Assembly (NCBI GenBank): GCA_021800795.1
Contig: JAJYYO010000019.1
Location: 1 to 64,000, forward strand
Direction of reading: 5' to 3'
Origin: Pseudomonadota bacterium
GTDB taxonomy: Bacteria > Pseudomonadota > Gammaproteobacteria > Burkholderiales > Gallionellaceae
Length of the DNA stretch: 64,000 nucleotides
Both the position numbers and the translations under genes were made by a program. Shown piece by piece: positions 2,746-64,000 of the stretch. Numbering within the stretch: position 1 is the stretch's first letter; each line of letters starts with the position of its first letter. The notes below the pieces were generated by a model. The model was not told the DNA's origin. It worked only from the letters and a program-made list of their open reading frames with translations, and did not search any database.

Positions 2746-3468
2746 TTACCGCCTGGCGAGCAGTAAAAAAAGGCTGGGGCGCTTGTTCAGCAGGGGTGCG
2801 GGCCGGGTTTTCCACTGGGCGATGCTGTGCGTCTGTATCTGTTCGGAAACTAAGCTGACATCGGTTGCGACACATAGCTGGGTGTGAGCATGGCACTGTG
2901 CGAGCAGTGCTGCAAATAATTTGTCGTTGCGATACGGCGTCTCGATGAACATCTGAGTCTGGCTGCGCCTGGACGATTCCGCTTCCAGCGCGGCTATCGT
3001 CCTGTTTCTGTCAGCTTCTGCAATCGGCAGATAGCCGTGGAAGGCGAAGCACTGACCATTCAGTCCCGATGCCATCAAAGCCAGCAAAATGGAGGAGGGG
3101 CCGACCAGTGGAATGACGCGTATCCCCTTTTGATGTGCCAGATTGACCAGTTCTGCACCGGGATCGGCGATGCCTGGACAGCCCGCCTCGGAAATGATGC
3201 CAACATCGCGCCCTGCCAGCAGAGGCGCCAGCAGTTCCGGCAGTTCAGCGGTTGCCGTGTGTTCGTTGAGCGTGGCAAAGTGGAGCGACTGGATCGGGTG
3301 CGTGTGTCTGAGCGATGAGAGGAATTGCCGTGCGGTCTTGGGTTGTTCTACCACGTAATGCTGCAAGCTGCGCGCGATGTCGATCACATGCTGCGGGAGC
3401 ACCTGCGATGCTTCGGTGTCGCCCAGCGTGCAGGGAATGAGATACAGTGTGCCTGGTTGGATGGTCAT
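2746..3468 (-). CDS. SAM-dependent methyltransferase, tetrapyrrole methylase (RsmI/YraL-like) superfamily
   Basis: GTLYLIPCTLGD..., ISEAGCPGIADPGAELV, VGPSSILLALMASGLNGQ. Confidence 0.85.
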   Translation of the reverse strand: MTIQPGTLYLIPCTLGDTEASQVLPQHVIDIARSLQHYVVEQPKTARQFLSSLRHTHPIQSLHFATLNEHTATAELPELLAPLLAGRDVGIISEAGCPGIADPGAELVNLAHQKGIRVIPLVGPSSILLALMASGLNGQCFAFHGYLPIAEADRNRTIAALEAESSRRSQTQMFIETPYRNDKLFAALLAQCHAHTQLCVATDVSLVSEQIQTHSIAQWKTRPAPLLNKRPSLFLLLARR

Positions 3469-3470
3469 GA

Positions 3471-4055
3471 TCAGAAAAGCTGTACGTTTTCGCGGCGCAG
3501 CATGTCGGTGAGCAGGATCAGCGGCAGGCCGATCAGCGCGTTGGGATCGTCGCCGCTCATATTGCTCATCAGCGCAATGCCTAAACCCTCTGATTTTGCA
3601 CTGCCGGCGCAGTGGTAAGGCTGTTCTTTAAGCAAATAGCCTTCGATCTCCGCATCGTCAAGATTGCGCAGGGTGACGTAATTTTCCGCGACTTCGGTTT
3701 GCATGTGGCCGCTGCGGGTGTTGAGCAGCGTCAGTGCGGTATAAAAGCAGGTCGTCTTGCCGCGCATGGCGCGCAGTTGTCTGACTGCATTGTCGTGGTT
3801 GAGCGGCTTGCCGATTTGCAATCCGTCCAGCAGTGCAACCTGATCGGAACCGATAATCAGCGCGTCGGGATAAGCTGCCGCTACGGCAAGTGCTTTTTCC
3901 TGCGCAAGGCGCATGGAGGTGGCGCGCGCGGTCTCATCGGGCAGCGGCGTTTCGTCCACGTTGGGAGATGCGGTTGTAAAAGGGATTTGCAGTCTTTTAA
4001 GCAATTCGCTGCGATACGGGGAGGTGGAGGCTAAGACCAGCAAACGGGTATTCAA
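3471..4055 (-). CDS. Maf-family nucleotide pyrophosphatase (YceF-like)
   Basis: [33 protein letters not shown]; likely TTG start at 4053-4055; the longer ORF start runs into repeat DNA. Confidence 0.9.
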
Positions 4056-4075
4056 TACAAATCCTTTAACATTGG

Positions 4076-4200
4076 AAGACAGTTGACAGTTGACAGTGGG
4101 CGAAGCTGCAATGTCGATTGCCGGCTGAAGTCTGTATTTGTCGTCAGTTATCAATTATTAATTATCAGCTATCGATTATTAACTATCAACTGTCTTTTTA
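4076..4200. repeat. Heptamer-repeat cassette with inverted arms in the divergent maf/yceD intergenic region
   Basis: gacagtt-gacagtt-gacagtg ... tatcaat-tattaat-tatcagc-tatcgat-tattaac-tatcaac-tgtc. Confidence 0.8.
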
Positions 4201-4258
4201 TAATATTTTCAGCGGGTTTTTTGACAGATCGCCGCGAAAAATATATTATGCGCGGCTC

Positions 4259-4780
4259 ATGTACGTTCGACCTTTCATAGACAGCCTGGATTTTGCCGGA
4301 AACGGCAGACAAATCACTGAACAAGTGCCGTTTGCAGAGCTGGCACGTCTTCATGATGTACTGGATAACCCGCAAGGATTCCTGCATTACAGTCTGCTAG
4401 GCGGACGGGATAGTCAGGGGCGTCCGGTACTGGATATCAGTATCAAGGGCGACTGTCAGTTGCGTTGTCAGCGTTGTCTGAATGCTCTGGATTATGCGGT
4501 ATGCCATGAGGCGCGCCTGTTGTTGTGCGATCAGGATACTCTGGATTTGTTGGACTCCGAAATGCATTTGGACGGGCAACCGGACGAAGAAGAGAGTTTC
4601 GACGGAATTCTGGCCGATGCGCATCTGGATGTGCTGGCGTTGCTGGAAGAAGAGATTTTGTTAAGCCTGCCAATCGCACCTAAGCATCAATCAGGTGTCT
4701 GTCAGGTGGCAGAGGGTGAAAGCAGACAAGAGGGTGATCGGCATCCTTTTGCGCTGTTAGAAAAGTTGAAACGTAATTAA
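4259..4780 (+). CDS. yceD: YceD family protein (DUF177)
   Basis: CQLRCQRCLNALDYAV core, located directly upstream of rpmF. Confidence 0.85.
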   Translation: MYVRPFIDSLDFAGNGRQITEQVPFAELARLHDVLDNPQGFLHYSLLGGRDSQGRPVLDISIKGDCQLRCQRCLNALDYAVCHEARLLLCDQDTLDLLDSEMHLDGQPDEEESFDGILADAHLDVLALLEEEILLSLPIAPKHQSGVCQVAEGESRQEGDRHPFALLEKLKRN

Positions 4781-4805
4781 TTAGATTTATCCAAGGAGTA
4801 ATAGC

Positions 4806-4985
4806 ATGGCAGTTCAGCAGAATAAAAAATCCCCTTCCAAGCGCGGCATGCATCGCGCCCATGATTTTCTGGCCGCTCCGGCGCTGGCGATCGAGCCTAC
4901 CACCGGCGAGAATCATTTGCGTCATCATATCAGTCCGACCGGTTACTACCGCGGCAAGAAAGTAGTCAAGACGAAGGGCGATTGA
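4806..4985 (+). CDS. rpmF: 50S ribosomal protein L32
   Basis: [59 protein letters not shown]; absent from the ORF track, read directly. Confidence 0.95.
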
Positions 4986-5000
4986 GTCACTTTGAAGCGT

Positions 5001-5021
5001 AGTCGACCATTATGGTCGACT
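5001..5021. other. Perfect hairpin between rpmF and plsX
   Basis: AGTCGACCA-TTA-TGGTCGACT. Confidence 0.6.
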
Positions 5022-5161
5022 GTGGTCAGACTTTGTTTTATCCGAAACCCTGAGTTTTTTGTGAGCGGTTATCTGACCGGCAAGCCCTTCAAAGGGTGCG
5101 CTGATTTCAGTAACCGCTGCTCAAGCTGGTTTTGGAGCTTTCTCTCGCCAAGGATTACTTA

Positions 5162-6208
5162 GTGGATGTCACATTAGCTATAGATGCGATGGGGGGCGAT
5201 CATGGTACTGCGGTCACCATCCACGCTGCCGTTGAGTATCTGAAGCAGTATTCCCGCGATACCATCATTCTGGTGGGTAGCCCCGATCTGATTAATGCGG
5301 AACTGCGCGCGCTGCGTATCGATGCGGCAGGCGGCATGTTCGGCGCGCGTCTGCGCGTGCATCCCGCCTCGGAAGTGGTGGGTATGGATGAGCAGCCGCA
5401 ATCTGCGCTGCGCGGGAAAAAAGATTCTTCTATGCGCGTTTGTATCAACCTGGTTAAAAGCGGCGAGGCGTCGGCCTGTATCAGTGCGGGTAATACCGGC
5501 GCGCTGATGGCGACCGCGCGTTATGTGTTAAAAACCATACCCGGTATAGACAGACCGGCCATCGCTTCCTATCTGCCAACCAAAAACGGGCAGGTGTGTA
5601 TGCTCGATCTGGGCGCCAATACCGATTGCTCCGCCGAACATCTGCTGCAATTTGCCATGATGGGCGCAACGCTGGTTACGGCGCTTGAGCGCAAACCGGA
5701 TCCTAGCGTCGGACTGCTCAATATCGGCAGTGAAGACATCAAGGGCAACGAGGTGGTGAAGCAGGCCGCTATCCTGTTGCGCGACAGCGACCTGAATTTT
5801 TACGGCAACGTCGAGGGTAACGACATCTTCAAGGGGACGACCGATCTGGTGGTGTGCGATGGTTTTGTCGGCAATGTCGCGCTCAAGACAGCCGAAGGGG
5901 TGGCCAAGATGATGGGCGGTTTTCTGAAGGAAGGTTTCTCCACGAGTTTGTACACCAAAATGGCTGCCCTGGTCTCCATGCCGGTGCTCAAGGCGTTCAA
6001 GCACAGACTGGATCACAGGCGCTACAACGGCGCCAGCTTTCTCGGTTTGCGCGGCATTGTAGTGAAGAGTCATGGTTCGGCGGACGTGTTTGCCTTTAAA
6101 TGTGCGATAGAAAAAGCGGCAGAGGAAGTGCGTGCCGGAATGTGGCAGCAAATCAGCGTGCATATCGAAAAATGGCACCATGAGCGCCAACAGCTGGGAG
6201 TGTCCTGA
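5162..6208 (+). CDS. plsX: Phosphate acyltransferase PlsX
   Basis: [15 protein letters not shown]...; likely GTG start at 5162; stop overlaps fabH start (TGATG). Confidence 0.93.
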
Positions 6209-7167
6209 TGCACGCAAAGATTATCGGTACCGGCAGTTACCTGCCGGCCAGGGTGCTGACTAATTTCGATCTGGAAAAGATCGTCGATACGACAGACGAG
6301 TGGATCGTCTCGCGCAGCGGTATCCGTGAGCGGCATATCGCGGCAGACGGTGAAATGACCAGCGATCTGGCCTTGCAGGCAAGCCTCAAAGCCATCGAGG
6401 CGGCCGGCATTGTCGCAGATGATATCGATCTCATCATCGTTGCCACCACTTCGCCTGACAAGATGTTTCCCAGCACTGCCTGCATCTTGCAGGACAAGCT
6501 GGGCATCACCAACGGCGGTGCTGCCTTCGACTTGCAAGCGGTATGCGGCGGCTTTGTCTATGCACTGAATACCGCCGATCTGTACATACGCGGCGGCCAG
6601 GCTAAAACTGTGCTGGTGGTGGGCGCCGAGGTGATGTCGCGCATGCTGGATTGGACCGATCGCGCTACCTGCGTGTTGTTCGGCGACGGCGCCGGTGCGG
6701 TCATTTTGCAGGCAAGTGCTGAACCCGGCGTGCTGGCAGTCAAGCTGCATTCCGATGGGCGGCATCATGCGCAGCTTCGGGCCGATGGCAATATCTGCAA
6801 CGGGGCGGTTAAGGGCAATCCCTTCATCAAGATGGAAGGGCAGGCGGTGTTCAAGTTTGCCGTCACGGTGTTAAGCCGCGTAGTTGATGAAGTGCTGAGC
6901 GATGCCGGACTGTTGGGGGCTGATATCGACTGGCTGGTGCCTCATCAGGCGAATATCCGTATCATCGAAGCGACGGCAAAAAAACTTGGTTTGAGCATGG
7001 ATAACGTGGTTGTCACCGTCGCTTCTCACGGCAATACCTCGTCAGCCTCGATTCCGCTGGCGCTGGATGTTGCGGTGCGCGATGGCCGCATCCAGCCTGG
7101 GCAAAACATCCTTTTTGAAGCGATAGGCGGCGGCTTTACCTGGGGCGCGGTTTTACTCAAGTGGTAA
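6208..7167 (+). CDS. fabH: 3-oxoacyl-ACP synthase III
   Basis: [13 protein letters not shown] active-site region, [25 protein letters not shown]. Confidence 0.95.
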
Positions 7168-46175: not shown

Positions 46176-49100
46176 ATGTCACCACCTAACAAATTCCGCC
46201 TGGTTGGTAACGATAGCGAGGAGCATCGCGCCCAGTCTCAAGCCATACAGGAAGCCCGGGCACATCAGGAGGCCGAAACGCAGGCCGGATTTTCCGCGCA
46301 GGCGCGTGCGCGTGCCGAGGCCCATGCGCGCGCCATCGCACAAGCCCGTGTGAAAATGGAAATGGAGTTGATCGCTCAACTGGAAGCCAAGTGTCAGGAA
46401 GAGGCTCGGCTCTCAGAGCTTGCGCAGGCCCGCATGGAAGTGGAGAAGCAGCTGGCGGAGGAATTGCAGGAAAAGCTGCTGCTGGAAAAACGGCTGACAG
46501 AAGAAAATCAGGCCAGGGTGCTTGCCGAGCGCCGGGCTCAGGAGGAATTGACGCAACGTTTGCAGGCGGAACAGATTGTACGTGCGGCGGCTGACAACAA
46601 GATTCGTGCCGAAGGTGAGTTGCAGGAATTGGTCGAGCAACAATACCAGACGGAACTGGCGGCACAACAGCGTGCCGAAGCCGAAATTCGTGCCATCCGG
46701 GTTAAGGCAGACAGGTTGCAGGCGCAAATCGAGCAGGTTGTGAGTGAGCGCATGGCAAGGGAGCAATTGCTGCTGAGCCAGGCTGAGGAAAAGTTGCAAA
46801 TCGAGGCTCAGTTGAGTGCAGCTGCGAGTTTGCGCGTTGAAAGCGAGGCCGAGGTGTTGCGCCTTGCGCAGGAAAGAGCCGATAGCGAGCAATACGAGAT
46901 GGAGCAAATCGGCAAGCGGCTTGAGTCTGAGCGCGATGCGGCAAAAGCTGCAGAAAGTCGCAGCCGACTCGAACAGCAGGCTGCCGGCCTTGCTCGGGAA
47001 AAGACCAGCACTGATCTTACGATTGCACGACTGTTGCAGGAAAAGGTCAGGAAAGAGCAGGAAGCCATTGCGCTGCTCAGCGCAAGGCAACTGGCCGAGC
47101 AGGCAGTGGTTGAGGCGCATGCGGCGAGGGCTGAAGCCGAGTCATACGCGATTGCCGAACTCGAAGCCAGATTACAGGCCGAGCGTGACGCCGAACAGGC
47201 TGCGGTGGCGCGGGCGGAAGCAGAAAAAGCGGCAGTCGATCTGGCGATTCAGCGCAGTCATGCCGATGAGCAGGCAAAGGCCGCTGCCGATGCGCGCGTA
47301 CAGCATGAGCGCCTGGCCTATGAAGCAGCGAAACAACGGGTGCAAGTCGAGGCCAATGCGCGCATTGAGGCGGAACGCAAAATAACAGCCGAACAGGAAA
47401 CAGCCCAGTTATTGCGGGCGCGGATTGACGCCGATAAAAAAGCGGCCGAGCAGCATGAACAGACGCATGCTCTGTTGTTGCAGGAGGCGCATGATGCAAA
47501 TGAGCGAGTGGCAAGCGAAAGTCTGGCCTTGCAGGCGGCGGCCCAGAAAGTGTCGACCGGGCGAGATCAGCTGATTTTTGCACAGCAGCGCGCAGAACTC
47601 GAAATGCAGGCAACGCTGGCATTGGAATTGCAGTTGCAGGTCGAGGCGCAGGCGATAAGTGCGGCAAACGAGCGCATATTGGCGGCGCAACTGGCGCAGC
47701 GTGCGGCTGAAGAAAAGCTTCATATCGAGGCGGGATTGCTGGAAGCCGAGCAGCAGCGCGAGCAGGCGGAGCAATTGGCCCGCCAGCATCTGCTGGAAAA
47801 ATTGCAGCTCCAGAATGCAGCCTTGCAGGCTGCACAGTTGCGCGCCGAATCCCTGGCTAATGAAAAGTTGATCATCGAGCATGGCTTGCAGGCAGAGCAG
47901 GCCCTGATTGCCACAGCACAACAAAAAACATCGGTGATCGAACAGGCTGCTGAAGAGGCATTGCAGCGAATTGCGCTGGAAACCGAGGCGCTGCATGTTG
48001 CTCAGACGCAGCTTGAGGCGGAGACGCGTGCCATAGCGGCAATTGAAGCCAGGATGGCGGCCCAATTGCAGGCAATCGAATCGGACAATCAACGCATTGA
48101 AATGGAGGTGCGTGCGCAGGAAATCGCCGAAACAATGCGCCAGCTTAACGAACGTGCCAATCAGGATGCGAAAGAGCAGGAGCAGGCTGCAATTCGCGCC
48201 TTGAATATTGTCAAGCTGCGGGCCGGTACTGAGAGGCTGGCACTCAAACAAAAGGAAGACCAGATTCACGCCGAAGCCTTGGCGACGGCAGCCTTACAGA
48301 AGCAAATGAGCGAAGCCAGGCAGGCTCATGAGCAGGCTTTGTTGCGTGCCGAGAATATGGCCAAACTGCGAATTGCTGAAGTGCAAGAAGCGACCCGTCT
48401 GGAAGAGGAACGCATCCGCAGCGAAGCCGTCGCCGCTGTCGCAGCGCGTAAACAGGCCGAAGTCGCCAGAGCCGCTACCGGGGCAGCTGTTTTACGCGAA
48501 CAGCTGGCAGCGCAGTTGGATGAACAGGAAGCGTTGCGTCTGGCGAACGAACGTGAATTGCTGGAGCAGCTGGAGCAACGTGCAGCACTTGAAGAACAGG
48601 CGAGTGTGGCGGTGCAGGCCCGCCTTGAGGCGGAACAGCAGGCCTGTGAGGCCGAACAATTAAAAATTGCCGCTGAACAACAGGCAAGGCAGCTGGCTTT
48701 GTCGCATGAACAGGCGCAACGGCAGGCGGCTGAAGCCGAACAGGAAAAAATTCAAAGCGAAGAAGCGGCCATCATCGCGGTAAATCAGTTGGAACAGATT
48801 GGCAGAGAAGCCAGGCGGCTCGCTGAAGAGCGCGAACAGATGGCAAGACACCTGATTGAGCGCGAGCAGCAGCGTCTGGAAAATGAGCGCGAGTTGCAGG
48901 CACAGCAAGCGCTGCACGACGCCTTGATGGCTGAGGCGGCAGAGGCGCTGCAATCACGTCTGGCAGCGGAACATCAGGCTTGCGAGGCAGAACAGTTACG
49001 AATTGCCGCAGAGCAGCAGGCAAGCCAACTGGCTCTTGCACATGAGGCGACACAACGTCAGCTTGTTGAAGCAGCACAGGAAAAAATTCGCCTTGAAGAG

Positions 49101-51356
49101 TCTGCTCTGGCAGCCATACAGCAACAAGAGCAAATTGCCGAATCCGCCCGTCTGGTCGTTCTGGAACGCGAACAGATGGCATGGCAGCTGGCTGAACGGG
49201 AACAGGAACGACTGACCCATGAGCGCCGATTGCTTGAGCAACTGGCTCTGCGAGCTGCTTTGGAGGCCGAGGCGCTTGCCGCCGTGCAGGAACGTACGGC
49301 TGCCGAGCAACGGGCGTGCGATTCTGAGCAGGCGAAAATCCGCAGTGAAGAGCGGGCCTTGATTGCGACAGGGCAACGTGAGCAACTCGAAGAAGCCGCT
49401 CGTCAGATCGCCGTTGAAAATGAGCAAACGAGTTTGAAACTGGCTGAGCAAGCTCAGTTGCGCCTGACGCACGAGTCCGAGTTGCAGGCGCAGCAACTGC
49501 TTCGAGTATCGCTTGAGGCGGAGGCGAATGCAGCCTTGCAGGCGCGGGTTGCAGCGGAACAACAGGCGTGTGCGGCGGAACAGGCAAGAATAGCCGCTGA
49601 GCGGGAGGCCGAGCTGGCGGCGCGTGCGCATGAAGCGGCTCAGCTTGTGGCAGCCGAAGCTGAACAGGAACGGATGCTCCGCGAAAAATCGGCGATAACG
49701 GCCATGCAGCAACGCACACATGTTGCCGAACTCGCCCATCAGGCGGCTGTAGCGCGCGAACAGATGGAAAATCAGCTGGCTGGAGACGAGGGGAAAAAGT
49801 TTGAACTGGAGCGCACCTTGCAGGCTGCGTTGTCGGAAAAACAGTCGCGCCTGGACGAGTCGATGCGGGCGACCCAGGCGCGGATTAAGGCTGAAAATGC
49901 GGCGAGCGAGGCGGAACAGTTGAAAATTGTCGCTGAACAGCAGGCTCAGCGGTTGGCACGAGAACATGAAATGGTACTGCGTCAGTTGGCTCAGGTAGAG
50001 CAGGATAAAATTCGTCATGTAGAGTCTGCACTCGCTGCAACACAGCAAAGTGCGCAGATTGCCGAGGAAGTCCGCTTGTCAACTCGGGAGCGCGAGCAGA
50101 CGGCTTTGCAGTTGCTTGAACAGGAAAAGCTGCATCTGGTGCAGGAGCGCGAATTGCAGTTGCATCAGGAGCAGCGGGCAGCGCTTGAAAAGGAGGCGGT
50201 CGCTGTCATGCAGTCGCGCATCGCGGCTGAACAGCGGGCATGTGAGGCCGAGCAGGTAAAGATTGCCGCAGAGCAGCATGCGTTGAGCCTTGCCGTAGCG
50301 CATGAGGCGGCGTTGCGCAAAGCGGCGCTGGCCGAACAGGAGCGGATTCGTTGTGAAGAAGCCGCCATGTTCGCCACGCGTGAACGCGAAAAAATTGCCG
50401 AGGATGCCCGCATTGCAGCAGCTGAACGCGAGCGGATGGAAAATCAGCTGGCCAGGCAAACGCAGCAACTGACGGAGAGGGAGTGTACTCTGCAGGAAGC
50501 CCTGTCCTATAAGCTGACGATTGCGGAAAAAAACGCGCAATCCAGACAAGCCCGTATTGAGGCTGAGCAACGTGCGATTGATGCAGAGCAGGAAAAGTTG
50601 CGTTTTGAAGAATCCGCCCAACGCGAGGCGGATGAACGAATTGGCGAGATCGAGCGGCAAATCGAAGCAACCTCCGAGGAGATTGCCAAAACCGGCGCGC
50701 AACGCATGGCGGAGCAGCAGCGTGCTCTCGAAGCCGAGCAGGCGAGGCACCGGGCCCAGTTGCTGGAACTTCAGGCGGCGGCGGAATTGGCCGCTGCCGC
50801 AGAACAGGCAGAACAAGCGGCCTCGCAAAGGCTGATAGAACAGCAACAATTGCTCTCCCAGCAACAATTGAAGTTGGCGGCTGAACAACAACTGCTGGTT
50901 GCCACGGAGCAGCGCAGAAGGGCCGAGGAACAGGCCGGGGCGGCGGCTGCCGAACATATTTCAGCCGAGCAAATGGCGATCGTACAGGCTCAGGAAAAGT
51001 TGCTGCTGGAAAAACAGGCCGCACAACAGGCGCGGCAACTGGCCGAATTTGAAGAACAGGAAACCAGACGGTTAACTTCGTCAGTTGAGCAATCGCGCAT
51101 TGAACTGGCGCCGCTTCTGATGAGTGCGCGGCAGCGCAAAGTCTCGCGTCTGATCAAGACGGGCAAGGCGCTGGGATTGCTATCGATGGCGGTTCTGCTC
51201 GGCTATTACTGGATCAATGAGCGCTCTGTTCAATCAGTCAAACAGGCGGGCATCGCTGAACAGGTTGAACCGCCTGTATCGAAAGACGCTCAGGCAGATG
51301 AGTCACCGCACCAGTCAGGCATGTTAAAACTGTCAAAACAATTGAAACAGGATTAG
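46176..51356 (+). CDS. Giant Ala/Glu/Gln-rich coiled-coil protein with C-terminal TM anchor (1726 aa)
   Basis: Heptad-rich throughout; TM helix ALGLLSMAVLLGYYWI near the C-terminus; internal 112-aa repeats. Confidence 0.88.
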   Translation: MSPPNKFRLVGNDSEEHRAQSQAIQEARAHQEAETQAGFSAQARARAEAHARAIAQARVKMEMELIAQLEAKCQEEARLSELAQARMEVEKQLAEELQEKLLLEKRLTEENQARVLAERRAQEELTQRLQAEQIVRAAADNKIRAEGELQELVEQQYQTELAAQQRAEAEIRAIRVKADRLQAQIEQVVSERMAREQLLLSQAEEKLQIEAQLSAAASLRVESEAEVLRLAQERADSEQYEMEQIGKRLESERDAAKAAESRSRLEQQAAGLAREKTSTDLTIARLLQEKVRKEQEAIALLSARQLAEQAVVEAHAARAEAESYAIAELEARLQAERDAEQAAVARAEAEKAAVDLAIQRSHADEQAKAAADARVQHERLAYEAAKQRVQVEANARIEAERKITAEQETAQLLRARIDADKKAAEQHEQTHALLLQEAHDANERVASESLALQAAAQKVSTGRDQLIFAQQRAELEMQATLALELQLQVEAQAISAANERILAAQLAQRAAEEKLHIEAGLLEAEQQREQAEQLARQHLLEKLQLQNAALQAAQLRAESLANEKLIIEHGLQAEQALIATAQQKTSVIEQAAEEALQRIALETEALHVAQTQLEAETRAIAAIEARMAAQLQAIESDNQRIEMEVRAQEIAETMRQLNERANQDAKEQEQAAIRALNIVKLRAGTERLALKQKEDQIHAEALATAALQKQMSEARQAHEQALLRAENMAKLRIAEVQEATRLEEERIRSEAVAAVAARKQAEVARAATGAAVLREQLAAQLDEQEALRLANERELLEQLEQRAALEEQASVAVQARLEAEQQACEAEQLKIAAEQQARQLALSHEQAQRQAAEAEQEKIQSEEAAIIAVNQLEQIGREARRLAEEREQMARHLIEREQQRLENERELQAQQALHDALMAEAAEALQSRLAAEHQACEAEQLRIAAEQQASQLALAHEATQRQLVEAAQEKIRLEESALAAIQQQEQIAESARLVVLEREQMAWQLAEREQERLTHERRLLEQLALRAALEAEALAAVQERTAAEQRACDSEQAKIRSEERALIATGQREQLEEAARQIAVENEQTSLKLAEQAQLRLTHESELQAQQLLRVSLEAEANAALQARVAAEQQACAAEQARIAAEREAELAARAHEAAQLVAAEAEQERMLREKSAITAMQQRTHVAELAHQAAVAREQMENQLAGDEGKKFELERTLQAALSEKQSRLDESMRATQARIKAENAASEAEQLKIVAEQQAQRLAREHEMVLRQLAQVEQDKIRHVESALAATQQSAQIAEEVRLSTREREQTALQLLEQEKLHLVQERELQLHQEQRAALEKEAVAVMQSRIAAEQRACEAEQVKIAAEQHALSLAVAHEAALRKAALAEQERIRCEEAAMFATREREKIAEDARIAAAERERMENQLARQTQQLTERECTLQEALSYKLTIAEKNAQSRQARIEAEQRAIDAEQEKLRFEESAQREADERIGEIERQIEATSEEIAKTGAQRMAEQQRALEAEQARHRAQLLELQAAAELAAAAEQAEQAASQRLIEQQQLLSQQQLKLAAEQQLLVATEQRRRAEEQAGAAAAEHISAEQMAIVQAQEKLLLEKQAAQQARQLAEFEEQETRRLTSSVEQSRIELAPLLMSARQRKVSRLIKTGKALGLLSMAVLLGYYWINERSVQSVKQAGIAEQVEPPVSKDAQADESPHQSGMLKLSKQLKQD
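48648..50579 (+). repeat. Six internal repeats of 336, 336, 252, 336, 336, 336 bp in the coiled-coil gene
   Basis: Units start (E/D/A)(A/S)EQ.KI at 48648, 48984, 49320, 49572, 49908, 50244. Confidence 0.9.
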
Positions 51357-53909: not shown

Positions 53910-54704
53910 CTACAACGGGGGCGGGGCGGGACAGCCGGCGGACAGGGTCAGCACTTCAAAGCCGGTCTCGGTCACCAGTATGGTGTGTTCGTATTGGGCT
54001 GACAGGCTATGGTCGCGCGTCACCACCGTCCAGCCATCATTCAGTTGCTTGATGTCTTTTTTTCCGGCATTGATCATCGGCTCGATGGTGAACACCATGC
54101 CGGCTTCCAGCTTTAAGCCGGTTTTCGGGCGACCGTAATGCAGCACTTGCGGCTCTTCATGGAAATTTGCGCCGATACCGTGACCGCAAAACTCGCGCAC
54201 TACGCTGTAGCCCAGCGGTTCGACGAAGCTCTGAATCGCGTGGCCTATATCGCCCAGATAGGCGCCCGCCCTGACCTTGCGGATGGCGCGCCACATGGAC
54301 TGATAAGTGGTCTCGCACAGGCGTTTTGCCTGGATCGAGGGTTCGCCGACATAGAACATGCGGCTGCTGTCGCCGTGATAACCGTCCTTGATCACGGTGA
54401 TGTCGAGATTGACGATGTCGCCGTTTTTCAGCACCTTGTCGCTCGGCACGCCGTGGCAGATCTGGTGATTGATCGAGGTGCAGATGGATTTCGGGTAAGG
54501 CGTGTGTCCTCCGGGCGCGTAGTTAAGCGGCGCGGGGATGGCCTGCTGCACATCGACGATCAGGTCGTGACACAGTCGGTCCAGCTCGTTGGTGGTGATG
54601 CCGGCCTTGACGAACGGGCCGATGTAATCGAGCACTTCGCTGGTCAGTCGGCCGGCGACGCGCATTTTCTCGATTTCCTGAGGGGTCTTGATGGAAACGG
54701 ACAT
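53910..54704 (-). CDS. map: Methionine aminopeptidase type I
   Basis: KTPQEIEKMRVAGRLTSEVLDYI, CTSINHQICHGVPSDK, FCGHGIGANFHEEPQVLHYG. Confidence 0.96.
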   Translation of the reverse strand: MSVSIKTPQEIEKMRVAGRLTSEVLDYIGPFVKAGITTNELDRLCHDLIVDVQQAIPAPLNYAPGGHTPYPKSICTSINHQICHGVPSDKVLKNGDIVNLDITVIKDGYHGDSSRMFYVGEPSIQAKRLCETTYQSMWRAIRKVRAGAYLGDIGHAIQSFVEPLGYSVVREFCGHGIGANFHEEPQVLHYGRPKTGLKLEAGMVFTIEPMINAGKKDIKQLNDGWTVVTRDHSLSAQYEHTILVTETGFEVLTLSAGCPAPPPL

Positions 54705-54950: not shown

Positions 54951-56120
54951 TTAACCCGACTTCGTGCGCAAGCAGGCTGCTATCTGCCCGAAGGGGATGC
55001 GCTCCTGTTCAAGTCGCAGTGCGATACCCTCGGGTGATAACAGTGCGGCGCAGGTGGCGCGTTCCGTGTCGGTCAAACAGGCCGGAATTTCTTTCACGGG
55101 AGAGGCTTCCGTGACACACAGGCTGCGATTGGCTGCCAGCGTCGCGCTATCCATCAGCATCGATTCAACATGCGGGAATATTTCGCGAAAACGGGACAGA
55201 ATCGCAAAACCGTGCGTGTCCAGGTCGCCCCAGTAAACGATGCGTTTGGTTTTTAACCAGTCCGCCTGGGCTAAGCTGCCTATACCGTAACCCAATGAAA
55301 AGATGACCATGCTTTTTGGCGCAGCCGGAAAGGCCAGCCCGTTCACTTTGTTTTCGGTGACATACACACAGTCCACGTCCAGTTCAAGGCGGCAAAAATC
55401 CGCCAAAGGCAACGTGAGGTCGGTAAGTCCTGACAGCGTAATCGCAGGATCAAGCAGCCGGAAGCGAATCAGGTGCTGGTCATAACGCAGGCCATAGCGT
55501 TGCTCGAATTTATTGGCTTCACATTCAATGGCGGACGGGGGCAGCAGGGCATCCAGCAAAACGGTCAGTTGCGTGGTGTGCTGCTCGATAAATTTGCTGT
55601 CGATGTCGGGCAGGTCAATCTGGCGGATATAAATATCCGGTCTCGGGTGTGCGATGAACCAGTCGACAACGTCCAGCAGCTTGTGCCAACTCGCCAGATT
55701 GTCCGCCAGATGGCGCGGCTTGTCGTGCAATATGCAGGCCAGGGCAGGGTGTCGCCCGACGGTTTGCAGCGCCAGTTGCTTGAATTGCGTTGCCTCGCGA
55801 AGTTTTCCGATGAAGCGTAAAAAATCCTGTTCTGTTTCAAAATAAATCCTGCCGGGCAAATGCTGCTCGCCCAATTGGCGATGCGACACAGGCTCGAAAT
55901 CAATCCGGTAGCCGTATCCCAGCGTGGCTTTGGATGAGGCCTTGAGTTCCTGCAAGGATTTGCCGATACTGGCGAATTCATTCAGCAATTCACGGCCGGC
56001 CGGCTTGCCGAACGGGATGTCGAGTGCCTGCCAGGGCGCGCCGGATAGGCACAGGCGGTGATAGGCATAACTGCTCCAGTACCGCTGCGCCTTGGCGCGT
56101 ATGTCTTGCGGGGTAATCAT
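54951..56120 (-). CDS. jetD: Wadjet protein JetD (DUF3322/DUF2220, Toprim-like nuclease)
   Basis: VYVTENKVNGLAFPAAPKSMVIFSLGYGIGSL...IVYWGDLDTHGFAILSRFREIFPHVESMLMD; ATG at 56118-56120. Confidence 0.9.
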   Translation of the reverse strand: MITPQDIRAKAQRYWSSYAYHRLCLSGAPWQALDIPFGKPAGRELLNEFASIGKSLQELKASSKATLGYGYRIDFEPVSHRQLGEQHLPGRIYFETEQDFLRFIGKLREATQFKQLALQTVGRHPALACILHDKPRHLADNLASWHKLLDVVDWFIAHPRPDIYIRQIDLPDIDSKFIEQHTTQLTVLLDALLPPSAIECEANKFEQRYGLRYDQHLIRFRLLDPAITLSGLTDLTLPLADFCRLELDVDCVYVTENKVNGLAFPAAPKSMVIFSLGYGIGSLAQADWLKTKRIVYWGDLDTHGFAILSRFREIFPHVESMLMDSATLAANRSLCVTEASPVKEIPACLTDTERATCAALLSPEGIALRLEQERIPFGQIAACLRTKSG

Positions 56121-56262
56121 GTCAGATGACAGAAGACAGAAGACGGAAAACAGAAGACGGAAGACAGATCGTCGAGTGCCGCAAAGCGGCACACCAATTA
56201 TAGATGCGGCTGAGCCGCGACAAATCCTCTGTCATCTGTCTTCTGCCTTCTGTCCTCTGATG
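56121..56262. repeat. Heptamer-repeat cassette with inverted arms between jetC and jetD
   Basis: gacagaa-gacagaa-gacggaa-aacagaa-gacggaa-gacagat ... atctgtcttctgccttctgtcctctg. Confidence 0.92.
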
Positions 56263-59200
56263 CCGCTGCGCGCTTTTTCCTCGCGGTATTCGGCGATGGT
56301 CAGCGATCGGATCATGGAGTTTTTACCCTCCTGGTTGTGGACCAGATGAACCGAGCGCACGTAGTTTTCGATGACGTGGATTTTTTGCAGCGGCGTGACG
56401 ATGAGCAATTGCAGGCCCAGCTTGCCGAACAGTTCCAGGCCGTAGCGCGCAGATTCGTCCGAACCTCGCCCGAATGCCTCGTCTATCATCACAAAGCGGA
56501 AAGCTCGCGTGGCGCGGCTCTGCTGGTCTATGCCGTATTGATAGGCGAGCGCGGAGGCCAGTATGGTATAAGCCAGCTTTTCTTTCTGGCCGCCTGATTT
56601 GCCCGCCGAATCCGAGTAAAACTCTTTCTCCGTGCCGTCTTCCTTCCAGCGTTCGCTGGCCGAAAAACGATACCAGTTGCGCACATCCGTCACCTTGCGC
56701 ATCCAGCTGCGATCCGCATTGGTGGTGTCCTGCCGGCCATTGAAGCGGTCGATGATTTTTTTGACCAGGGCAAAACGGTGTTCGGTATAAAGCTCATCGT
56801 CGGCGCCCGTCAGCGTGTTGGCCAGACAGCCTTTCAAGTCTTCCTTGAACTGGCGGATTTCCATGTCCGGATCGGGATCGGGTATCAGTTGTATGTACGA
56901 TCCTGAATCGTACTCAATCTGCTTGAGCGAGCGGTTGATGGTGTCGATCTTGTTCTGGATGGTGCGCGATTCCTGGTCCAGCTTGTTTTGCAGCAGCGCG
57001 ACTTCGTTGATGGTGTTTTTGTTGAGCAGTTCCTTGAAGCGGCTTTTGAAGCGCGGCAAGTCCTCAGCCATCAGGTGTTTGAGCATGCGCTGAAATTCAG
57101 TTGCGGAATCCAGACTGGCATGCACCTCGCGGCAATCCGCAGGGTAGGCGGCGATATACTGTTGCATGGCAACGATGATCTGGCCGGAAGTTATTTCGGC
57201 TTTATCGCGCGTTTTTTTGATGCGATTGAGCAGCCAGTTACGCACTTGTGTTTCTGCGTCGGTACATTGTCTGGGTGTATTGAGCGGTTTGCCTTCCAGC
57301 GCTTCTGCGGGTAACTTGTCAAGACCGGCAAAACAGATGTCGCGCGCTTTTTCGGGCAGTTGCTCAAGAATATGGCCGGCATCGACTAAATCTGCTTGCG
57401 CGTTGACATGTTCGGTCTTTTTACCGCCGATTCTGCCTTGCAATTCAGCCAGTTTAAGGTTGGATTCCCTGATTTGCAGGATGACGGTCTCAAGGCGCTC
57501 GTTCAGCGAGCGCAGAATATCCGAGCTTTGCTCAAGCTCATGCATCTCCTCTTGCAATTGATGAATCTGCGCCACCGTCTGCGTCCAGTCGATCAGGGAA
57601 AACTCGGCGGGACGCAACAGTTCGAGCAGCGCGGCCTGGTGCTTGTCCAGAACCTTCAAAGCGGCATCGGTTTCTTCAAGCTGTTTGAGCAGCGCGTGCC
57701 CCTCGGTCTGGTGATCGCCAAGCTTCGCTTCCAGTGCGCGTATCTTCCCCTCGTTGCTCCAGCCCAACACGAAGCGACTGCGATCGTCAATGCGGTTGCG
57801 GTCATCTTTTTCGTGACGCACCCCGCCCGACTTGATCTGCCCCTGACGGGTCAGCGCTTTGGGATGGCGGCGGAATTCGTCCAGGTTATCGCTGCACAGA
57901 TAATCGTAGCCGCGCGCCAACTCAACCATCAGCCACTGATAGGACGAACTGTCCGCCTTGATCTCAAGTTTGTTGGCCAGACTTTGCGCTGCCAGCATCG
58001 GCGCCTGTCGTTCCTCGTCCGAGATGCGAAAGTACACCAGGCGTCCGGCCAGATGGGTGCGGTCCACATAGCTTGAGACGGCAGCATAATGCGCATCACC
58101 CACCAGCAGCGATAAACCGAAACCGTGCAGCACCCGCTCAATCGCGCCTTCCCATGCGCTTTCACGGCTTTGTACCTGGATCAATTCACCCGCAAAAGGC
58201 AGTTCGGTGTCAGCAATGGACAGCGCCTCGCAAAGCGTCTCACGCAGGCGCAGCATAGGGCTGGGGATGTTTGATTTGCGCAGCTTCAGCGAGTGGATTT
58301 CATCCACCAGTATCTTGCACTGGCTGTCTATGGCGTGGATGGCGACTTTGATCTGGTCGCGTTCTTCCGTCAGTTTCGCCTTGTTCGCATCGATATCCTG
58401 TTTGAGGGCTGCGGCACGGCGTCGATTGTCATGGAAAGTATCCAGGCACTGCGCACGCGGCAGTTCGAGTTGCTGGCAGGCACTGGCATATTCGTCGTAG
58501 GCCTTTTTGCGGCGTTCACGCTCTTTTTCCAGTTGCGAAATCAGCCCCTTGATTTCTTCGATGCGTCGTCCGCCGTTGTCGGCGATGGCCTGTTTAAGAT
58601 CGCTTTGTTGATCGTGAGATTGGTCTATTGCCGTTTGCTGTTGTCTCGCTTCATCTTCCAGCCGGAGAATGTCCAGATTGAAGCGGGCAATCATGTCCTC
58701 CAGCAGCCCCTGCTTTTTTTGTGCAATCCAGGCGGGGAGCGCGGCCCGCAGCCGTTCAGATTCAGCCGCGCTGGCCGTCAGTTGGGCGTGAGCGTTGCAG
58801 TTGTGCACCAGCGGCGTGAGTCGGGTGATTTGCCCTTCGGCTTTGAGGACGGATTCGTGCGCGGCGTTGAGATTGTCAAACAGGCGACACAGTTCGATGA
58901 TGCGCGGTTCGATGTCCGGGTCTTCCAGCATGTGGCAACGCACAAACTCGGTGATGTTGGACACGGCTTTCATCGACACGGTCTGATAGAACAAATCCAG
59001 CGCCTGTTCGCTGCCCAACCCCATGCGGCGGCGAAAATCATCCCCGTAAGCCGGGAAGTTGTCGTGCAGCGTGACCGCCTCCATCTTGCGCAGCCGTTTT
59101 TTGAGATCCTGAATGTCTGCGCCGAAGCCTGAAAAATCCGCATCGATGGAGAGTTCCCGTTCCGATACCAGATGAAAACGCTCAGGCTGCCCCTTGTCGT

Positions 59201-59615
59201 CCTTCATCCAGAACACTTGAGCCAGCGTCACGGTCTCGTTGAAATGGTCGTTGCGGAAACAGCCCAGAATCACCGAATAGCTGCCCAGTCCGCGCAGCGC
59301 CACGGACTTGGCGGCCAGGCGCTCATCGTCCTTTTCGCTCTTGTAATAGCCGCGCACATATGAGGCCAGGCTGCGTTCGCGCGTCTCGGCGCCGGCGGCC
59401 TTGTTGAACACCACCCGGTGTGCGGGAACCAGCAAGGTGGTTAACGCATCCACCAGCGTGGATTTGCCCGAGCCGATGTCGCCCGTCAGCAACGCATTTT
59501 CTCCGTTGGGTTCGATGCGCCAGACGCGCTGGTCAAAGGTGCCCCAGTTGAACACCTCGAAGCGTTCGAGGCGAAATCCCGGGGTTTTGAACATGTCGAA
59601 TTCAGTCGAGGGCAT
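56232..59615 (-). CDS. jetC: Wadjet SMC-like ATPase JetC
   Basis: Walker A LLTGDIGSGKSTLVDALTTLLVPAHRVVFNKAAGAETRERSL; long coiled coil; FVMIDEAFGRGSDESARYGLELFGKLGLQLLIVTPLQKIHVIE. Confidence 0.93.
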   Translation of the reverse strand: MPSTEFDMFKTPGFRLERFEVFNWGTFDQRVWRIEPNGENALLTGDIGSGKSTLVDALTTLLVPAHRVVFNKAAGAETRERSLASYVRGYYKSEKDDERLAAKSVALRGLGSYSVILGCFRNDHFNETVTLAQVFWMKDDKGQPERFHLVSERELSIDADFSGFGADIQDLKKRLRKMEAVTLHDNFPAYGDDFRRRMGLGSEQALDLFYQTVSMKAVSNITEFVRCHMLEDPDIEPRIIELCRLFDNLNAAHESVLKAEGQITRLTPLVHNCNAHAQLTASAAESERLRAALPAWIAQKKQGLLEDMIARFNLDILRLEDEARQQQTAIDQSHDQQSDLKQAIADNGGRRIEEIKGLISQLEKERERRKKAYDEYASACQQLELPRAQCLDTFHDNRRRAAALKQDIDANKAKLTEERDQIKVAIHAIDSQCKILVDEIHSLKLRKSNIPSPMLRLRETLCEALSIADTELPFAGELIQVQSRESAWEGAIERVLHGFGLSLLVGDAHYAAVSSYVDRTHLAGRLVYFRISDEERQAPMLAAQSLANKLEIKADSSSYQWLMVELARGYDYLCSDNLDEFRRHPKALTRQGQIKSGGVRHEKDDRNRIDDRSRFVLGWSNEGKIRALEAKLGDHQTEGHALLKQLEETDAALKVLDKHQAALLELLRPAEFSLIDWTQTVAQIHQLQEEMHELEQSSDILRSLNERLETVILQIRESNLKLAELQGRIGGKKTEHVNAQADLVDAGHILEQLPEKARDICFAGLDKLPAEALEGKPLNTPRQCTDAETQVRNWLLNRIKKTRDKAEITSGQIIVAMQQYIAAYPADCREVHASLDSATEFQRMLKHLMAEDLPRFKSRFKELLNKNTINEVALLQNKLDQESRTIQNKIDTINRSLKQIEYDSGSYIQLIPDPDPDMEIRQFKEDLKGCLANTLTGADDELYTEHRFALVKKIIDRFNGRQDTTNADRSWMRKVTDVRNWYRFSASERWKEDGTEKEFYSDSAGKSGGQKEKLAYTILASALAYQYGIDQQSRATRAFRFVMIDEAFGRGSDESARYGLELFGKLGLQLLIVTPLQKIHVIENYVRSVHLVHNQEGKNSMIRSLTIAEYREEKARSGIRGQKAEDR

Positions 59616-60174
59616 GGCTGCGGTACTCCTCCAGGCGTTCGTTGAAATTTTCCAGCCACTCGGCATCGACAAAGGCTTTCAGCACGCGGCGTATTTCATA
59701 GGTGTCGGGCTGATCGTTGAGTTCGCGCAGGAAACCCATTTCCACGACCCGGCGGATGTGGCTGTCGATCTGTTCTTCAATGCGTGCCTCGTTACTGCTT
59801 TCCGGCAGAAAAGTGCGCACCCGGTCGATGATTTCGCTGCGGGTAATCATGGTGCGCAATTCGCCATTGCCCGAATCGGCTTCGATCAACCGTTTGCGCA
59901 ACAGAATACACAGCAGGCTGACGGCGTAGCTCAGGGGGCGGCGGCTGACCAGTTTGGGCAGATCTTCATCGTCGCGTGCCTCGCGTTGACGCAGGTAGGC
60001 GTAGCCCTCGGCGTCATCCAGGTCGAGTTCCAGGCCGATCACCGACAAGTAGTCGCGAACCTGGCTCTCAAGGTGCAGCAATTCCTGCCAGCGATTGGGC
60101 ATCTGCTCGCGATACAGCACGCCCTTGAGCAGGTGGATCAACAGCGGCGGCAGGGATGGCGGATAGTCGGTCAT
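59602..60174 (-). CDS. jetB: Wadjet protein JetB (DUF4194)
   Basis: LIHLLKGVLYREQMPNRWQELLHLESQVRDYLSVIGLELDLDDAEGYAYLRQRE; overlaps the jetC start. Confidence 0.9.
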   Translation of the reverse strand: MTDYPPSLPPLLIHLLKGVLYREQMPNRWQELLHLESQVRDYLSVIGLELDLDDAEGYAYLRQREARDDEDLPKLVSRRPLSYAVSLLCILLRKRLIEADSGNGELRTMITRSEIIDRVRTFLPESSNEARIEEQIDSHIRRVVEMGFLRELNDQPDTYEIRRVLKAFVDAEWLENFNERLEEYRSHALD

Positions 60175-60274
60175 ATTGATACTGTCCCCAGTGAAGCTGC
60201 AAATTTCACGCCAAGAAACTCATTCGGCAACCGCGTCGTCCATTCGGTCATCAACACAAGATCGCGCAATGACA

Positions 60275-60739
60275 TCACAATGCGCTCAAGGTTTCGATCA
60301 AGAGCATTTTCATCAAGGCGTTACAGGCAGCCAGACGCTTGTCAGCGGTAATCATGGCATCGCAGCCGGATTCGATAGCAGTAGCCAGGTGAAGGGCATC
60401 CGCGAGACGAAGGTTGTGGCTGGCGCGAAGGTGTGCGGCGCGATCGACAACGGCGGATGATACCGCATCCATGCCGATCATTGCCGTTCCAGACAGCAAA
60501 TCCGAATATAGTGCGACAAGCGGTTTATTCCCTTGCCGCAAGGGGTGTACCAACACTTCCGCTCGCGTAATCTGACTGGTGCGCGCCCAGGTTTTCTCCT
60601 GCTGAATCAGATGAAAAACATCGCGTAGCGGCGAGAGCGGCCCGAATGGTGGGAGCGTACTTTCAAAAGCGTAAATAAAAACATTGGCATCAAGATAAAT
60701 TGTGCGATTGGTCACTGCATCCGGGAGCCACATGTTCAA
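60275..60739 (-). CDS. PIN-domain (VapC-like) toxin
   Basis: IYLDANVFIYAFE, LRLADALHLATAIESGCDAMITADKRL. Confidence 0.88.
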   Translation of the reverse strand: MNMWLPDAVTNRTIYLDANVFIYAFESTLPPFGPLSPLRDVFHLIQQEKTWARTSQITRAEVLVHPLRQGNKPLVALYSDLLSGTAMIGMDAVSSAVVDRAAHLRASHNLRLADALHLATAIESGCDAMITADKRLAACNALMKMLLIETLSAL

Positions 60740-60954
60740 TCTTCCCTCAATTCGTCCACATAGCGATTGACCGCATCCACGCTGTCGAAACGGGCGAATT
60801 TTCCGAAATGCCGGGTCCAGTCAGGATTGATCTGGCTCGAACGCTGTCGCACAAGGACAATCACCTCTGCCACCGTACCCTCTGGAAGGTCGGGTGTCGG
60901 GATATGCAAAATATGATCGGCGCTCACCTTGGCTTCATAACGAATAGCTTGCAC
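60736..60954 (-). CDS. VapB-like antitoxin partner of the PIN toxin
   Basis: 72-aa ORF with 4-bp overlap with the PIN gene; KVSADHILHIPTPDLPEGTVAEVIVLV. Confidence 0.75.
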   Translation of the reverse strand: MQAIRYEAKVSADHILHIPTPDLPEGTVAEVIVLVRQRSSQINPDWTRHFGKFARFDSVDAVNRYVDELRED

Positions 60955-61042
60955 GGTTACTCTCCTTCATTGACGTATCAATACGATACAGCGCAAAGGG
61001 CTGCGGTGCAAACGCCACCTGCAAGCCTGCCTTAATTCCTCT

Positions 61043-63529
61043 TTATTTTCTTAATGACAAATATTCCTTAAAAGTACGTTTAAAGTGTTCATCATCTTTA
61101 AAGTGTTCAATTCCAAAATTTATACAGTTTTTTAAACGGGGCAATGCATCTTTATGTTGAGGTTTGATTTTAATTATTGTTAAAAGCAATCTGCTCATCG
61201 TTGATGTTGGATACGCATCCGACGATCCTCTAGCAATTCTTTCCAAATCCAATATATTTACCCCCTCTTCATACACTAATTCATCAGCACAATTTGACTC
61301 AATATATTTGTCGAGCAAGGCAGTTCCCAACGAATGACGTGTTTGAAATGAATCATAGTGTGTCAACCCAGTTCTGAAACAGTCAATTGCATTGTCCAGC
61401 ATTCCAATTTTTCTATAATATCGACCAAAATGGAGCCAGAAGACACCATCTTTTCCAAATACTTTTTGCGCTTCGTGATAAGTTTTTTCCGTATCTTGTT
61501 TTTTGCTGGCAGCTGGGAAAAATTTATCGTACAAGAAATTGTTCGAAATAACATGCTTGTACATTTGATATGCAATCGGGTGATACTTAATATCATCAAT
61601 AGAAAACTGAGATGATAAATACTTAAGGATTCCAACGATAAAATCTACATCTCCTTTTCCTGCAATACAGTTCTCAAAATAATAAGTGGCAATAATTTGG
61701 TGCCTACAGCTGAGCCGCATCGATCCAAGCGGGCAAATTACCACCCCATCCAAATCAGAATTTAAACGATCGATAATTTTCTCTACAGCAATATTCAGAA
61801 AACCGGCGACGTATTTAATAGGGGTAGGAAAACCGAAAGAATTCATAATCGAGACAATGTCAAGAACTTGTCTTGCCAAAATATCTTTTACCGAGTGATA
61901 GTCCTGATAAATCTTTTCTTCAAGATTTTCATGCGTAGTCAATGAATATAAAGCTGACAGAAGATCCCCACCATAACCTGCTTCTTTATCGAGAATCAAA
62001 CCTGCTCGCTTTGCAACAGGAAGCGCAGAGAAGTTTTCAATATTCAGTCCGTGCTCTTCCATTTTTTGAGCTATAGCCATCGCATCAGGGAAAGTTAGTC
62101 TCCCTACTGTAAATGAGCTCAGAAACTCTTTACTTTCATCTAGCTGATGAAAATTTTTTTTATAATCGCTAAGTCTATCCTCAAGCAAGAACAAACAATG
62201 AGGAAGTTTTTTATCCTTTAATCGATTAACAATCAGATTCACAGCATAGTAATACTCAGCAGCCGAATAAAAAACTATTATTGAGGTTGATGTAAAACCA
62301 CTAATTATCTGGAATAACAAATCTGCATCGATTCCATTAGACGAATCGTATTCGTAAATATATGGATATGTTGTTACTAAACTCTGTAAAGAAGCACGAA
62401 TAGCTGTTGTTTTCCCTGAACCACTTGAGCCGACAACATTGATTATTGTTACACCTTCTGATTTATCTTGAAGACGCACGCTAATATAACTAATCAAGTC
62501 ACTTGTTTTTGATGTAATCGCATGAGTTGAATTAGCTATATAGAACCAATCTGGGTGTGCGCCAGCCAAAAAATGTCTTAATATTCCAGTCATCAACCTT
62601 GCTCTTTCGAGTTCTTGAAGAACTGGATTGAATGCCTCTTTGAACCAAACCTTTGCTTTTAGAGCAATTCTGGACCTTTGTATTAATGGCACTGATTCCG
62701 TAATTATCTCGTCTATAGATCGAGGGCGAAGACTTGAATATATCACGTTGAAAAATTCTTCAGCTTTCGCATCGATCACATCAAAGCCCGCTGCTATATA
62801 ATTTTCACGTTTGATGTCATCTGGGTTTGGCATTACTATCCAATTTTTTGCACCCAACGTATTACCGTAAACATTTTTTCTAGCCGCTAGGTGTGCGTCA
62901 ATATCTGCTTCGTCAAACTGATTACCAACAACTACGACTCCACCGGCCATAATTTTTGCTGCAAGTTCATTTTGCCAGTCGAGAGTTTTACTGGATGCAT
63001 TTCCATATTCTTCATTTGAAAAAATAAAACCATCTGCTTGTTTTTTAATAGTTCCATGAATACTTACTACAGGAATGGTGCCAATAGAATTATTGGCTAG
63101 CTGTGACTCAGTATAATTAAAAGCTTGAAACTCGGCACTTATAACGCCCCTTGCTTTAGCCTGCTGAATAGCCACGTCCAATACGTTGTCGATATTTGTT
63201 GTATAAATTCGACTCCACACATATTTAAAGATGCTTTCCTGCCATGAATTGACTACTGTGACTGTAAAGCATTTTTCCAAAAACTCATTGAAATTTGGTA
63301 AAGACCGTTCTGCAAAGTTATATGCGTCTTTAAGTGTTGTTCTAGGCCCCGCTTTTCTATTACATTCTTCTAAAAGCAGATCTCGCAGCCCATCGCCATT
63401 CGGTATTTTTAACAATGATGATGTAGTATTTCCTTGGCTAAAACCAGCCCCAAGAAGCAAAGACACCTGCCCACTATTTATAAGAGGACATATTGATTCC
63501 TTTATTTTTTTTTCATCATCAGAATTCAT
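61043..63529 (-). CDS. SIR2-like / P-loop NTPase / TPR-like defence protein (Avs5-like architecture)
   Basis: SIR2 motifs VSLLLGAGFSQG, RIYTTNIDNVLD, VVSIHGTIKK; P-loop NVVGSSGSGKTTAIRASL; C-terminal TPR-like GKDGVFWLHFGRYYRKIGMLDNAIDCFRTGL; visibly AT-richer than flanks. Confidence 0.82.
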   Translation of the reverse strand: MNSDDEKKIKESICPLINSGQVSLLLGAGFSQGNTTSSLLKIPNGDGLRDLLLEECNRKAGPRTTLKDAYNFAERSLPNFNEFLEKCFTVTVVNSWQESIFKYVWSRIYTTNIDNVLDVAIQQAKARGVISAEFQAFNYTESQLANNSIGTIPVVSIHGTIKKQADGFIFSNEEYGNASSKTLDWQNELAAKIMAGGVVVVGNQFDEADIDAHLAARKNVYGNTLGAKNWIVMPNPDDIKRENYIAAGFDVIDAKAEEFFNVIYSSLRPRSIDEIITESVPLIQRSRIALKAKVWFKEAFNPVLQELERARLMTGILRHFLAGAHPDWFYIANSTHAITSKTSDLISYISVRLQDKSEGVTIINVVGSSGSGKTTAIRASLQSLVTTYPYIYEYDSSNGIDADLLFQIISGFTSTSIIVFYSAAEYYYAVNLIVNRLKDKKLPHCLFLLEDRLSDYKKNFHQLDESKEFLSSFTVGRLTFPDAMAIAQKMEEHGLNIENFSALPVAKRAGLILDKEAGYGGDLLSALYSLTTHENLEEKIYQDYHSVKDILARQVLDIVSIMNSFGFPTPIKYVAGFLNIAVEKIIDRLNSDLDGVVICPLGSMRLSCRHQIIATYYFENCIAGKGDVDFIVGILKYLSSQFSIDDIKYHPIAYQMYKHVISNNFLYDKFFPAASKKQDTEKTYHEAQKVFGKDGVFWLHFGRYYRKIGMLDNAIDCFRTGLTHYDSFQTRHSLGTALLDKYIESNCADELVYEEGVNILDLERIARGSSDAYPTSTMSRLLLTIIKIKPQHKDALPRLKNCINFGIEHFKDDEHFKRTFKEYLSLRK

Positions 63530-63669
63530 GAATCACCTTTTTGAAAGTTGACTTTGCAGATTTAATAGTCAGAGTATAACTTCACTTAAAAAAATTGTAT
63601 TTTTTAATATTTCCTTGCTCCTGCGCAGCGCGTGGGAGCGAGGAAGATGAGGGCGGGTAATTTGTCAGG

Positions 63670-64000
63670 TCAGCGGGTAAAAATGACGAGCGGGATGTCG
63701 GCGTAGCGTTGTCTGCCGTCCGCATCACGCCACGGAATTTGCTGGCGTTGTTTTTCATCGAAGGTGGATTTTTCATCGCGATTGGCCAGGTTGAGGTAGG
63801 CGACGATTTCCGCCATACCGCGCGTGACGGGGTATTTTTCGACGATGTCGGACAAGGCTGCCTGGCCTTTTTCCGAGAGCATCCGCGCAATCTGGTTTTT
63901 CAGCAGCGCTTCATCCACGTAGTGTTGATTGAACAGGGCCTCGGCGGAAAACTCACTGGTTCCCAGCAGCGGCGCGGTATCAAGCATCTGGATTTTGCGC
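63670..64000 (-). CDS. jetA: Wadjet protein JetA (DUF3375), C-terminal part; 5' end beyond the window
   Basis: ARMLSEKGQAALSDIVEKYPVTRGMAEIVAYLNLANRDEKSTFDEKQRQQIPW...ADIPLVIFTR*. Confidence 0.85.
   Translation of the reverse strand, partial: RKIQMLDTAPLLGTSEFSAEALFNQHYVDEALLKNQIARMLSEKGQAALSDIVEKYPVTRGMAEIVAYLNLANRDEKSTFDEKQRQQIPWRDADGRQRYADIPLVIFTR

Follow-up and report, generated by a model that had tools for sequence, protein, structure and literature searches.

Type I Wadjet systems are usually laid out as contiguous jetA-jetB-jetC-jetD operons, and this contiguity is not strictly defining. The window, that is, the whole stretch of 64,000 nucleotides analysed here, carries the four genes of such a system on its minus strand. 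The jetA gene (63670 to 64000) runs past the window edge; when followed there, the whole gene (63670 to 65142 of the contig) proved intact, encoding 490 aa with no internal stop and covering the full DUF3375 family (positions 2-474 of 474, E 3.3e-134). The other three are jetB (59602 to 60174), encoding a 190-aa DUF4194 protein (8.6e-46), the SMC-like jetC (56232 to 59672, with a likely ATG start at 59615) and jetD (54951 to 56192, with a likely ATG start at 56120), which encodes the DUF3322/Toprim nuclease subunit (DUF3322, 1.4e-43; JetD_C, 6.1e-47). The system is assigned to type I because PADLOC names the products JetA1, JetB1, JetC1 and JetD1. This four-subunit Wadjet is complete, with all jet frames open and a GC content of 55-59%. 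By sequence, JetC keeps its Walker A, SGGQKE and MIDEAF motifs and JetD its GDLDTHG and TENK motifs, and the likely start of jetC overlaps the end of jetB by 14 nt. At the jetC/jetD junction (56118-56262) lies an imperfect inverted-repeat element with arms like CAGAAGACAG/CTGTCTTCTG; partial copies occur at many sites of the genome, and the element is missing from the jetC-jetD junction of the related locus L157.

The operon thus has all four subunits of known type I Wadjets, in the same order and on the same strand, with SMC and Toprim motifs; however, jetA and jetB, adjacent in the known form, are here separated by 3.5 kb with three foreign genes. On the minus strand the order is jetA, a SIR2 gene, a VapB-like gene, a PIN gene, jetB, jetC and jetD, and open reading frames and family matches confirmed this order as originally predicted. 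The interruption extends from 63669, the base adjoining the jetA stop codon, to 60275, the stop of the PIN gene.

The largest of the inserted genes (61043 to 63529, minus strand) encodes an 828-aa SIR2-nSTAND5-TPR-like protein and is preceded by an AT-rich spacer of 140 bp after jetA (63530 to 63669, minus strand, 39% GC). The protein matches SIR2_2 (2.6e-11) and nSTAND_NTPase5 (2.1e-10), and its C-terminal resemblance to TPR repeats is weak (E 0.03). Its architecture, a SIR2 effector followed by a STAND NTPase and then by a C-terminal part rich in repeats, is that of Avs5 and related SIR2-STAND proteins, with which it has in common the GAGxS, TTNxD and HG motifs (GAGFS at residues 27-31, TTNID at 110-114 and HG at 158-159) and the Walker A motif (residues 367-374). 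To this extent the proposed likeness to Avs5 stands; it fails in two respects, as none of the SIR2 defence models in PADLOC matches the protein and its Walker B strand is degenerate, reading IIVFYS without an acidic residue (IVIED in two relatives). Since PaAvs5-1 requires the acidic Walker B residue, Glu410 (PMC12931631), the NTPase function of the protein encoded here is uncertain. A single-sequence structure model was unusable (mean pLDDT 35.9). Searches of the genomes of the class, plasmids, phages, viral contigs and a genome collection returned no close homologues, and the two nearest proteins of the same architecture that were found are only about 22% identical. The GC content of the gene is 36.6%, against 55.6% for the window, and this low value relative to both the window and the jet genes points to a later arrival; by composition the gene reads as foreign and horizontally acquired.

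Downstream of the SIR2 gene, a VapB-like antitoxin ORF (60736 to 60954, minus strand, 72 aa) precedes a PIN toxin-like gene (60275 to 60733, or to 60739 if a TTG start is used; minus strand, 152 aa; PIN, 1.4e-14). As in VapBC modules, a small upstream ORF overlaps a PIN gene that has kept its acidic residues: the VapB-like stop overlaps the PIN start region, and the residues lie in the LDANVF, RAEVL, LADALH and TADKR segments of the toxin. In contrast to VapBC, the antitoxin candidate belongs to no family matched in Pfam, NCBIfam or PADLOC. Small ORFs also lie upstream of PIN homologues in relatives. The PIN gene is in turn followed by an ORF of 34 codons (60171 to 60275, minus strand) that overlaps its neighbours at both ends, its start with the stop of PIN (TGATG) and its stop with the start of jetB (ATGA). 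This ORF may be a chance one; the start-stop overlaps that link it to PIN and jetB would permit coupling without proving it. The leader of jetB that includes the ORF occurs as a single copy in the genome, which rules out its origin from a mobile repeat.

Such an arrangement could be read as a functional composite, in which the insert and the jet genes would be transcribed together and in part translated together, with either the SIR2 protein or the toxin pair tied to Wadjet, for instance as a fail-safe after unsuccessful plasmid cleavage. The chain of start-stop overlaps through VapB, PIN, the 34-codon ORF, jetB and jetC speaks for this reading, as do the co-direction of every insert gene with jet and that of much jetA-jetB cargo elsewhere. 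Nevertheless, we consider it unlikely, because an AT-rich leader of its own precedes the SIR2 gene, most Wadjets function with no cargo at all and the cargo differs in each relative, one of them carrying a K+ transporter operon. Moreover, the jetA-SIR2-jetB order that the original prediction had proposed looking for in other genomes did not recur in our survey, and among the searched genomes the SIR2 insert was found only here.

The whole operon lies within a larger block bordered by core genes. Its downstream edge is map (53910 to 54704, minus strand), encoding methionine aminopeptidase; upstream, a HepT-MntA-like pair adjoins jetA, with prfB beyond the pair. The distance between prfB and map is ~65-85 bp in four congeners as against ~11 kb here, and this interval consists of the whole defence block. 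Given the adjacency in the congeners, the layout reads as nested insertions. The stretch immediately preceding map is similar to the map leader found in other congeners, in one of which prfB lies elsewhere, and the prfB-map adjacency is not genus-wide, the two genes being far apart in G055 and G039, each of them a single-contig genome. It is therefore likely that the defence block was inserted between prfB and map, with its exact ancestral site unproven. The 64-kb prfB-map interval of genome G014, read at both ends only, was rejected as a second island of this kind since it holds mostly ordinary metabolic genes, and it was left out of the count. No insertion footprint was found at the insert, which contains no transposase and is flanked by no repeats resembling a target-site duplication, so that a recent transposon insertion was rejected; promoter-like and terminator-like sites were no better than chance level and speak neither for nor against the proposed sharing of the jet promoter by the insert. 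With jetA intact and the block set between prfB and map, the proposal of a composite, nested defence island gained support. Farther from the block, at 46176-51356, there is an ORF of 1726 aa that is rich in Ala, Glu and Gln, coiled-coil-like and carries a hydrophobic stretch near its C-terminus.

The closest jet operons encode JetA proteins 82% identical (G107, L035) and 84% identical (G114, L157) to that of the window, the L157 contig being the Gallionellaceae record PLYB01000068.1 (L047). Both have the same jetB-jetC overlap as the window operon, and both are interrupted between jetA and jetB, by 5.2 kb in L035 and 1.1 kb in L157. The L035 cargo (2746-7032) comprises a DUF4118 histidine kinase, a response regulator and a Kup-type K+ transporter, and that of L157 is a TacAT pair. 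Since the contents differ among all three of the nearest operons, a common insert of the whole clade is excluded. These relatives also bear on whether unrelated sequence was joined at jetA-jetB during assembly. The genome is indeed a draft of 63 contigs; however, its completeness is 99.99% with a contamination of 0.22%, two relatives of high identity are interrupted at the same junction, and so is the isolate Endozoicomonas ascidiicola (L058), on a contig of 772 kb. An assembly artefact is accordingly very improbable.

We then compared the three jet junctions across distinct type I loci, defined by their jetA sequences and gathered by similarity to the JetA of relatives, hence a non-random set, counting a gap of >500 bp as an interruption. 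Such gaps were present in 17/126 jetA-jetB junctions, 2/121 jetB-jetC junctions and 3/90 jetC-jetD junctions (Fisher, p 0.0005 for jetA-jetB versus jetB-jetC and 0.015 versus jetC-jetD); one locus, L180, was left out of the interrupted ones, its apparent gap being due to a broken jetA. When JetA was clustered at 90%, the corresponding numbers were 13/110, 2/105 and 3/80 (p 0.006 and 0.063), and at 70% they were 6/44, 2/43 and 3/34, where the bias is not significant. Extra genes are thus held more often between jetA and jetB than at the other junctions, a possible preference that fades once relatives are merged at a coarse level. Wadjets on complete plasmids, few in number, seem to be contiguous.

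In support of the original interpretation, other genomes were found in which toxin-antitoxin or defence cargo separates jetA from jetB. Besides the SIR2-STAND and VapBC-like genes of the window, this junction holds HepT-MntA in L138, a MazE-like/PIN pair in L123, a PIN gene in L034, the DUF4143 ATPase PDC-S01 in L058 and L061, DUF559 in L060 and, in L032 (6619-10290), a gene with GT4-conflict, nSTAND5 and TPR parts that has an in-frame stop after codon 293. Four loci (L136, at 1854-2600, L137, L139 and L145) carry there a co-directional TPR-like ORF of 187-251 aa with no Pfam match, which recurs in one other family and may be a lineage-specific Wadjet partner. The jetA-jetB gaps of L036, L101 and L124 contain no convincing gene. 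Cargo at the jetB-jetC junction consists of a NACHT-like gene with YhcG (L064) and AlbA_2 (L074), and that at jetC-jetD of ParDE (L058), HEC-01 (L123) and AlbA_2 (L136). Altogether, the cargo at jet junctions is rich in conflict genes and includes others, such as the K+ transporter operon of L035. It might be supposed that the junction simply tolerates foreign DNA while Wadjet degrades in the lineage and that the inserts have no role, given that broken Wadjets are frequent in the family (L159, L160, L169, L033) and that some interrupted loci have frameshifts (jetC in L157) or, as in the jetA of L138, a stop/frameshift. At the locus studied here, however, the reading frames of the four jet genes and of the insert are all open, with motifs preserved, and such chance decay is improbable.

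The explanation that we favour, and regard as likely, is that an intact type I Wadjet lies between prfB and map and that conflict genes were later inserted between its jetA and jetB. Since jetB overlaps jetC, these two would need to remain together, whereas jetA could be expressed on its own; the jetA-jetB junction would thus be the easiest site for insertion, which is probably least harmful there. By analogy with known Wadjets, JetABCD would cleave small circular plasmids. The SIR2-STAND protein, a suspected NAD-depleting sensor, would use its TPR-like region to detect a product of the phage, then oligomerise and deplete NAD+, thereby stopping the infected cell, and the toxin pairs could add to defence or help to keep the island. 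The inserts would ride passively or profit from co-directional read-through, with no physical cooperation with JetABCD, so that independent systems at a common locus are the simplest reading; the combination of plasmid defence, phage defence and addiction is something we only infer. In a bolder version, jetA-jetB would be a preferred slot that different lineages fill with swappable toxin-antitoxin and STAND/SIR2 genes under jet control; the anti-plasmid machine would then be accompanied on its travels by a replaceable module for phage defence or addiction, and expression of jetA would be uncoupled from that of jetBCD. We find this version conceivable, if doubtful.

That defence genes can lie embedded within the operons of other defence systems is already an established theme, as far as the preprint of Payne et al. 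(2024) is represented in PMC12988326 and PMC12255303; DarTG2, for example, sits between hsdS and hsdR of a type I restriction operon (PMC12255303). The present locus resembles such cases in having defence-like and toxin-antitoxin genes between the core genes of an otherwise complete defence operon, and differs from them in that the host operon is a Wadjet and that two cargo modules occupy one junction. We therefore regard it as a further instance of the theme, the potentially new part being the possible junction preference in Wadjet. No report of an interrupted jetA-jetB was found in the open Wadjet literature searched, which is weak evidence of novelty as the preprint itself fell outside that scope. 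In practice, programs that expect contiguous jetABCD genes may miss or split interrupted loci, and the jetA-jetB interval is a place to seek unknown defence genes. The interruption also raises the question of whether separate expression of the kleisin JetA is tolerated or exploited by Wadjet. As to the decayed Wadjets of L159, L160, L169 and L033, pieces of jetA and jetD are left in them, jetB and jetC having been lost.
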